This document shows, one piece after another, positions 36,388-38,133 of a stretch of DNA of 64,000 bases. The DNA comes from Pedobacter psychroterrae (GTDB lineage: Bacteria > Bacteroidota > Bacteroidia > Sphingobacteriales > Sphingobacteriaceae), in the NCBI RefSeq assembly GCF_004331695.1, contig NZ_SJSL01000001.1:1054001-1118000 (forward strand), written 5' to 3'. Each line of letters opens with the position of its first letter. The first letter of the stretch is position 1. Both the position numbers and the translations under genes were made by a program. Below the pieces are notes generated by a model. The model was not told the DNA's origin, searched no databases, and saw only the letters and a list, made by a program, of their open reading frames with translations.

Positions 36388-36867
36388 TTACAAAAGGCTT
36401 TCCAGTGGATAGCCAAGCTCTCTTTTTGTCTCGGTAAGGACAAAATGACTTTCCAGGGCGCCTATATTTTGAAGTCGGGCAAGCTTTTGAACAAGAAAAT
36501 TATTATATGCCGGCATATCAATTACTACTATCTTTAACAAAAAATCATACGCTCCCGTCATCTGATAACATTCCAAAACTTCAGGGAAATGGACCACATT
36601 TTTCTGAAAAGCGGTTAGTGCTTCACAGCTGTGATTGGTTATGTTAACCTGAGTAAATGCAATTAGCATATCTCCGAATTTTTTTCGGTCTATAAGCGTC
36701 ACACTACCGGTTATATACCCAAGTGTCTTCATACGGGTTACCCTGGCAAATATAGTCGTGTTCCCTTTACGTAGTTTGTACGCAAGTTCTTTACTTGTTA
36801 GCCGGGCATCTTGCTGTAGCAGGCTAAGGATATTAAGATCAATTTGATCCAAAGTGTGGGCATTCAT
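36388..36867 (-). CDS. Lrp/AsnC family transcriptional regulator
   Basis: 159 residues from ATG 36867 (MNAHTLDQIDLNILSLLQQDAR), the usual start for the family. The N-terminal winged HTH is LTSKELAYKLRKGNTTIFARVTRMKTLGYI; the C-terminal RAM domain has VLECYQMTGAYDFLLKIVVIDM. It senses an amino acid or small molecule. Target and ligand are unknown. The 663-bp stretch upstream is non-coding. Confidence 0.88.
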   Translation of the reverse strand: MNAHTLDQIDLNILSLLQQDARLTSKELAYKLRKGNTTIFARVTRMKTLGYITGSVTLIDRKKFGDMLIAFTQVNITNHSCEALTAFQKNVVHFPEVLECYQMTGAYDFLLKIVVIDMPAYNNFLVQKLARLQNIGALESHFVLTETKRELGYPLESLL

Positions 36868-37099
36868 ATAACCATTTGTTACTGTTAATAAAAAAACATA
36901 CAATATTTAGGTCAATAAAAGCCGGCAAGGGGTAATGCCTGCAATACAAATTAATAACATTCTTGTGACATTCACAAATTTTCTGAAATGAATTTTTTTT
37001 ACATGGTATTACCTCCATTTTATACAAAATTTAATTTTGGCAACAAAGGGCCGTTTAGAATAATTTTCCGGTTTTCACAAAAGTCAATATTTTTTCATA

Positions 37100-37409
37100 C
37101 CTCTGTGCAACTTTTATAGCTTAGATGCGTCTTATAGACAAATAATACCCTGAGCTCACAAAGCCCGGTTATAGATTTGTCGGTGCGGACAGGATGTAAC
37201 ATGCGGCTTTGAGTTCAGTCTTAATAATATGATTGGAAATGATTATATCCATAAAAATACTTATCCGAGACCGATCATCCCGGGTTTCTGTAAGTGCACC
37301 GGAAGTAGTTAGCCGGTATGCATTCAAATCATTCTTTCATAAAGATGATTAAAATTTAGGTTAAACAGCAGGATTGTCCGGATGGAAATCCTGCTGTTTT
37401 GTTTTTGTC
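37100..37409 (+). ncRNA. Candidate structured non-coding RNA
   Basis: The stretch 36868-37530 has no credible reading frame but contains a chain of stable helices on the + strand. Helix A: CTGAGCTC (37150-37157) with GAGTTCAG (37211-37218), AAAGCC (37160-37165) with GGCTTT (37205-37210), GTTATA (37168-37173) with TGTAAC (37195-37200), and TGTC/GACA at the tip. Helix C: ACTTA/TAAGT and GAGACC/GGTTTC (37259-37295). Helix D: TGCACCGG with CCGG-TA-TGCA (37295-37322). AATCAT (37327-37332) can pair either with ATGATT (37239-37244) or with ATGATT (37345-37350), so two folds exclude each other. A terminator ends the unit. Three helices contain G-U pairs that fit only + strand RNA. The 5' end is not fixed; a TAATTTTG box is at 37032-37039 and TACCTCTG at 37098. 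Confidence 0.6.
37363..37407 (+). terminator. Strong intrinsic terminator of the candidate RNA
   Basis: AAACAGCAGGATT (37363-37375) and AATCCTGCTGTTT (37387-37399) form a 13-bp perfect stem, followed by TGTTTTTG. No protein-coding gene precedes it on the + strand for nearly 1 kb. Confidence 0.92.
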
Positions 37410-37530
37410 TATTTTTGGCATTATTTGCGGATGTTTCATGTCTCAGGCGCATTTTAATCGCAGTTTGTTCGGAAATTGCGTGCTTTTTGCGAAGGAGTAC
37501 TGACCCAGGTCCGATGAAGTACCGAATTTA

Positions 37531-38133
37531 TTACAGTTTATCGAGTTTGAAGTATCCAAGGTGCACCTGATCGGCAGGTAGTCCCGCATTTGCGACGATC
37601 TCAATATGAAAATTCTCTTTAAGAGCAGGATCGAGAATTTCTTCTATTTTATAGATGTCGTCGACATCAATGCCGTACTTTTCATCTATATGAGAGTTGG
37701 CGCCTTTGATTTTATTGCTTTTGAAAAAGATTGTTTTTTTTGCCTCTTGCACAGCCTGCGCGCGATCTGTTTTTACTGATAATACCGTATAGTGCTGCTC
37801 TTCGAGTTTGCCTGTCTGATACCCACCAAGGTTGATGAAAAATAGCTTTTCCGGGAATGCAGGTTGAGCTTTTTCCGCGGTTAGAAAACTTTGCGTGCGT
37901 GGCACTACCTTTACTTCATAGCCATCTACCACGTTTACCTCACGCCAGCCATCTATGTGCAGACTATCGCCCGCCTCCGGCCAGAATGCGCGCATCTGGG
38001 GTATCAGTTCTTTCAGACTGTCCGCTATGCCAAAGAAATAGTCATGTTGTTCTACATTTCGCCGGGGAGCTTTGGAACCTAATAAGACCATGTAAAGCCT
38101 GGGAGTTCCTGGCTGAAGCTGTAGTTCATTCAT
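37531..38133 (-). CDS. DUF1543 domain protein
   Basis: 200 residues with two related halves: LYMVLLGSKAPRRNVEQHDYFFGIADSLKELIPQMRAFWPEA and KLFFINLGGYQTGKLEEQHYTVLSVKTDRAQAVQEAKKTIFF, each with the H-(D/Y)-x-F/V pattern of DUF1543. Cytoplasmic and of unknown function. No operon partner; it converges on the candidate RNA terminator. Confidence 0.8.
   Translation of the reverse strand: MNELQLQPGTPRLYMVLLGSKAPRRNVEQHDYFFGIADSLKELIPQMRAFWPEAGDSLHIDGWREVNVVDGYEVKVVPRTQSFLTAEKAQPAFPEKLFFINLGGYQTGKLEEQHYTVLSVKTDRAQAVQEAKKTIFFKSNKIKGANSHIDEKYGIDVDDIYKIEEILDPALKENFHIEIVANAGLPADQVHLGYFKLDKL

Follow-up and report, generated by a model that had tools for sequence, protein, structure and literature searches.

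Genomic context and predicted structure

The window analysed here is the whole 64,000-nucleotide stretch of Pedobacter psychroterrae contig NZ_SJSL01000001.1 (forward strand), and all coordinates refer to it. The features in and around the interval of interest are as follows.

Start at 36867 (or 36903), minus strand: Lrp/AsnC gene
36904-37530: interval containing no protein gene
37105-37134, plus strand: putative ECF-sigma-type promoter, GTGCAAC-N-GCGTCTTA, with -35 box GTGCAACTTTT and -10 box TGCGTCTTA (sequence motif)
37138-37405, plus strand: putative transcript of about 268 nt
37150-37218, plus strand: long imperfect 5' hairpin of 28 pairs (z -4.2 for 37146-37222 alone)
37259-37295, plus strand: hairpin H1 (UACUUA.../...UAAGUG), recurring in the MFE folds of homologs
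37298-37317, plus strand: hairpin H2 (ACCGG/CCGGU) with the conserved loop AGURGUUA
37327-37350, plus strand: hairpin H3, exposing UUUCAUAAA, which is antisense to a start-codon region
37350-37363, plus strand: unpaired seed UAAAAUUUAGGUUA, the antisense of UAACCUAAAUUUUA in the leader of susC
37365-37407, plus strand: intrinsic terminator ACAGCAGGAUU/AAUCCUGCUGU with a GGAU tetraloop (37380-37383) and a U-tract; folded stem 37363-37399
37531-38133, minus strand: DUF1543 gene

The initial annotation had read 37100-37409 as a probable structured RNA on the plus strand, closed by a strong terminator and lying within a gene-free stretch. The gap is confirmed, and the two genes flanking it are on the minus strand. 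Because 37105-37134 is a probable promoter, the transcript is likely to start near 37138, and the first ~35 bases of the annotated extent are excluded from the RNA. A candidate closing helix (37117-37126/37351-37360) was dropped, as its 5' arm falls inside the promoter.

An independent MFE fold of 37138-37407 contains helices 37150/37218, 37259/37295 and 37296/37321, a hairpin at 37327/37350 and the terminator at 37363/37399. It reproduces the helices originally drawn at 37150-37218, 37259-37295 and 37295-37322 and the strong terminator, along with all three of the G-U pairs that had been singled out (37154/37214, 37172/37196 and 37269/37286). The fold energy is -91.4 kcal/mol, against -65.6 +/- 5.2 for shuffled sequences (z -5.0; 0 of 200 shuffles as good), and the minus-strand fold is weaker (z -3.4). 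The seed has an unpaired probability of 0.55-0.98 across 37351-37362, and the terminator stem begins at 37363. This terminator is real and was overlooked by a terminator scan because the loop limit of that scan is 8.

Neither the 64-kb window nor 15 related loci gave any Rfam match at the gathering threshold, and no known RNA was matched. The near-matches in a search of the region (mir-2813, sraA, SpF43 and Bacteroidales-1) are all far below cut-off and at chance level; the first three rest on the terminator hairpin and that to Bacteroidales-1 does not.

Homologs and covariation

Exact matches to the core of the RNA among 84,980 named species come from Pedobacter metabolipauper, P. ginsengisoli and Pedobacter sp. 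JY14-1. The first was found by a DNA search of relatives and the other two by a second search from the P. metabolipauper sequence, which also returned shorter forms located after an NAD-epimerase gene. Viral contigs gave no copy of the core. Hairpins H1, H2 and H3, the single-stranded stretch and the terminator are common to the window RNA and all three homologs, with a conserved core made up of the hairpin exposing UUUCAUAAA, the single-stranded UAAAAUUUAGGUUA and the terminator with its GGAU loop. At the seed, AAATTTAGGTT is invariant in the homologs. H3 keeps its position in all four sequences, with stems that differ. H1 has few compensatory changes; MFE folding gives the same hairpin for P. 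ginsengisoli and Pedobacter sp. JY14-1 and a version shrunk to ACUU/AAGU for P. metabolipauper. None of the three homologs has sequence related to the 5' hairpin upstream of its core, and about 460 kb of DNA from the window's own genome contains no further copy, so that this hairpin is specific to this genome among the data examined.

Compensatory base changes in the three species fall in H2 and in the terminator. In H2, 7/7 pairs are changed on both sides in an 11-sequence structure-fitted alignment and 5/7 in an unfitted 4-sequence MAFFT alignment; in the terminator, 7/10 pairs have two-sided changes. Over both helices, the unfitted alignment has 7/17 two-sided pairs, compared to 1-3 when the partner is slid, and the 11-sequence alignment has 14/17, with fitting that leans towards structure. 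The annotated structured plus-strand RNA is thus backed by fold energy, homologs and covarying pairs.

At loci L010 and L030, the epimerase reading frame overlaps the RNA: in Pedobacter sp. JY14-1 it continues into H1/H2, and in a further genome, G032, into the upstream part. This overlap suggests that the sRNA arose from the 3' end of the epimerase gene.

Predicted susC target

Outside the homologs, the BLAST matches are antisense to susC leaders. The RNA core is antisense to UAACCUAAAUUUUA...AUGAA, and the 13-base sequence TAACCTAAATTTT has two exact copies in the 5.1-Mb genome: the antisense copy in the sRNA and one that begins 20 bases ahead of the ATG of a susC-type TonB-receptor gene, in its leader. 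The H3 loop UUUCAUAAA extends this complementarity over the start codon (duplex energy -22.1 kcal/mol). A search of 11 genomes found the pattern TAACCTAAATTTTA-N-ATGAA in 8 of them (0 in controls), and 8/9 sense copies precede a susC gene of the MKKLLQSLF type. When one mismatch is allowed in the 13-base sequence, its own genome has 24 copies vs 39 in the control, which is not an overall enrichment, so only the position before susC starts is informative. The leader also occurs in genomes in which no window-type RNA was found, a distribution that gives no sign of co-evolution and counts against the proposed explanation.

When seed duplexes were computed against 222 leaders, the best two partners were both susC. 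A broad susC enrichment does not hold for this seed: the two genes had been preselected by exact or near-exact match, and the energy test is not significant without them, as 49/150 shuffled seeds do at least as well as the window seed against the other 54 susC leaders. The target set is therefore likely to be narrow.

A sister family across Pedobacter

A covariance model of the four homologs has matches in 87 of 145 genomes of the genus, many of them weak. The weak matches inspected belong mostly to a second, undescribed sRNA family consisting of a UUCAUA-loop hairpin, a seed (UUUAUAUUUGGUUAG) and a terminator with a GGAU tetraloop. The tetraloop is invariant in 23 family members and its closing pairs covary (8/10 pairs). 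The sister seed, UAUAUUUGGUUAG, is antisense to CUAACCAAAUAUA leaders (for example at loci L075, L103 and L046). The R1 match G000:C8:852162 was discarded as a similar terminator only.

The sequence CTAACCAAATATAAA is present in 58/60 genomes, with two control matches in the whole list; the copies inspected are mostly sister sRNAs in antisense, and the sense copies are leaders just before an ATG. In the genome of the window, TAACCAAA occurs in 12/56 susC leaders and in 1/166 others (p 2.6e-7), and the duplex energies of the sister seed with susC leaders beat 150/150 shuffles. CTAACCAAATATAAA leaders were also seen before HppA-like, oxidoreductase-like, sodium-symporter-like and GH43-like genes (named by eye; L051, L059, L070 and L078), so the targets of the sister family may extend beyond susC.

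A second model, R2, was built from the sister family alone, with window-type sequences excluded. Its best match in the window is 37330-37404 (37.1 bits, E-value: 1.8e-5), and it has five matches in the genome, namely the window RNA and four further copies. Many weak R2 matches outside the family (L209-L219) look like plain terminators and were set aside. Sister genera have multi-copy forms with TCTCATAATTTAGGTTTATAATTGGTTAG. Like the window RNA, the sister RNAs have a UUCAUA-loop hairpin, a single-stranded anti-leader seed and a GGAU-loop terminator, and one covariance model finds both. Unlike it, they carry seed UAUAUUUGGUUAG, are shorter, lack H1/H2 and have TAnnTTTG promoters or lie in the 3'UTRs of gapA-type or other genes. 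In several genomes (L046, L109, L118 and L231), the sister sRNA directly follows a gapA-type gene (C-terminus ...FVEYYGxLK) and is apparently 3'UTR-derived. As part of the overall explanation given below, the window RNA probably belongs, as a divergent paralog, to a Sphingobacteriaceae sRNA family that exists in multiple copies and targets CUAACCAAAU-type leaders.

Probable promoter and alternative explanations

The most conserved block upstream of the RNA, GTGCAACTTTTATAGCTTAGATGCGTCTTA, resembles an ECF sigma promoter; in a flavobacterium, a CGT -10 box has been taken to mark ECF promoters (PMC9723704). The pattern GCAACN13-16GCGTCTTA has exactly 4 copies in the 5.1-Mb genome, and the reversed control has 0. 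The remaining three lie 70-71 bases before the start codons of DUF2807/GIN-domain genes and have the same 28-base span. A related pattern, TGCAACN14-17GCGTCTA, has no match in this genome because the window promoter reads GCGTCTTA. DUF2807 was verified by Pfam for two of the three promoter-sharing genes, the two on which Pfam was run. These three paralogs are at loci L198, L199 and L201, and the L199 gene ends at approximately window position 135. The element common to the window RNA and the DUF2807-type genes is of the type GCAAC-N-GCGTC, not sigmaABfr (TAnnTTTG). The same box precedes the homolog in P. metabolipauper. Upstream of the P. ginsengisoli and Pedobacter sp. JY14-1 homologs it was not seen, so that ECF control would be lineage-limited; in these two the RNA may come from a 3'UTR.

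The window RNA could be a trans-acting member of the family that is constitutive or made from another promoter, with the 37105-37134 box being an operator or a chance occurrence. Other family members do have TAnnTTTG promoters or lie in 3'UTRs. However, this explanation is unlikely given that three further sites, and no more, carry the box with identical sequence and spacing, each before a DUF2807-type start, that the reversed control has no match and that the box is kept in P. metabolipauper.

Less likely still is a cis-acting element or 3'UTR relic, whose antisense match to susC would be a drift remnant or an inverted leader copy with no regulatory role. The overlap of the H1/H2 part with the end of the epimerase frame in Pedobacter sp. 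JY14-1 and the short forms in the epimerase-gene 3'UTR of other genomes fit such an origin, but the most conserved parts of the RNA are the seed, the anti-AUG loop and the GGAU terminator, the stems covary, there are five paralogs in the genome and the RNA has a promoter and terminator of its own with no same-strand gene upstream.

A riboswitch or other ligand-sensing RNA with two alternative folds, as implied by the annotated pairing of AATCAT (37327) with either of two ATGATT segments, is very improbable: the sequences are present as described (ATGATT at 37229, 37239 and 37345) and the 5' hairpin is strong, but the exclusive folds lack comparative support because only the 37345 partner is conserved, the upstream ATGATT copies being absent from the homologs, and there is no Rfam match and no same-strand gene downstream (DUF1543 is on the other strand). 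Taken by itself, the hairpin at 37227-37248 folds no more stably than expected by chance (z 0.0). Altogether, a trans-acting antisense sRNA from a multi-copy family fits the evidence better than a riboswitch or housekeeping RNA.

Proposed model

The best explanation, to which a probability of roughly 0.7 is given, is that 37138-37405 encodes a trans-acting sRNA of a FopS-like multi-copy family that has an ECF-type promoter and represses susC translation. It builds on the conserved and covarying structure, the promoter motif census, the target complementarity and the paralogy; transcription, ECF control, repression and a role in stress can be inferred from these. The proposed model is as follows. 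An ECF-type sigma factor would start the RNA from 37105-37134, such that the sRNA is made together with the DUF2807/GIN-domain surface proteins, presumably under envelope stress. The 3' part of the RNA would expose the seed UAAAAUUUAGGUUA and the anti-start-codon loop UUUCAUAAA. The predicted partners of these two elements are the MKKLLQSLF-type susC mRNA, at its leader and AUG, and one further susC. Pairing would block ribosome entry, leading to decreased synthesis of the outer-membrane transporter.

In Enterobacteriaceae, MicA and RybB are sigmaE-dependent porin-repressing sRNAs, by which an envelope-stress ECF sigma factor blocks translation of outer-membrane protein mRNAs. The regulatory logic proposed for the window RNA is similar, although there is no sequence relation and its predicted targets are TonB-dependent SusC-type transporters. 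It is conceivable, at somewhat less than even odds, that Bacteroidota have their own ECF-controlled counterpart of sigmaE-MicA/RybB, an sRNA repressing outer-membrane proteins that was derived from a FopS-like family by acquiring additional hairpins and an ECF promoter and by retargeting of its seed. More broadly, these data suggest that multi-copy anti-leader sRNAs against susC-type transporters extend through Pedobacter and its sister genera, in which distinct seeds match distinct classes of leader, and that an ECF sigma promoter controls at least one of the copies. If true, stress sensing would be tied to outer-membrane transporter synthesis in a phylum in which most sRNA circuits are unknown, and the proposed reading provides testable targets and a shared promoter motif.

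Comparison with FopS and related sRNAs

The FopS sRNAs of Bacteroides thetaiotaomicron, described in 2025 as conserved within Bacteroidaceae, repress translation of susC at its start and have the RRM protein RbpB as a binding partner; their R1 seed is shared with GibS (PMC11697453). The Rfam FopS consensus (RF04319) reads GUGUUUUUCAUgGUAUUAGAUUUAAGGUUAA followed by a terminator, and the order of its parts is as in the window RNA: an anti-start-codon stretch (UUUUUCAU in FopS), then an anti-leader seed with GGUUAA, then the terminator. Further likenesses are the multi-copy paralogs in one genome (the window RNA being one of the five R2 matches), the single-stranded seed directly before an intrinsic terminator, seed complementarity to susC translation-initiation regions (the top two of 222 leaders) and the three RRM proteins encoded in the genome, RRM being the class of RbpB.

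The two RNAs differ in several respects. The window seed is UAAAAUUUAGGUUA, compared to AUUUAAGGUUAA in FopS, and is located at the 3' end after the hairpins, about 210 nt into the predicted transcript, whereas the FopS seed is at the 5' end. The anti-AUG stretch is inside a hairpin, H1/H2 and the 5' domain are additional, the terminator has a GGAU loop and the promoter appears to be ECF-type rather than sigmaABfr (TAnnTTTG). The FopS model (gathering cut-off 56 bits) has no match in the window, nor any at E-values up to 10 in 36900-37560. Because the model, promoter and seed position all disagree, the RNA is best read as a FopS-like variant that would be under ECF control, and not as FopS.

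A minimal member of the sister family (L104, L108 and L117), in which TAATGCTCGTTTAATTTATATTTGGTTAGAG and a terminator directly follow a TAnnTTTG promoter, has a FopS-like 5'-seed layout. The L104 copy is weakly matched by the model for the Bacteroides sRNA BTnc231 (RF04180; 22.8 bits vs a cut-off of 80.4); this score is below the curated cut-off, and the promoter and layout of GibS and BTnc231 are different. In a genome of another family (f29), L205 has a sub-threshold FopS match at 1501-1562 (36.9 bits, E-value: 1.4e-4), which suggests that FopS-like RNAs exist outside Bacteroidaceae.
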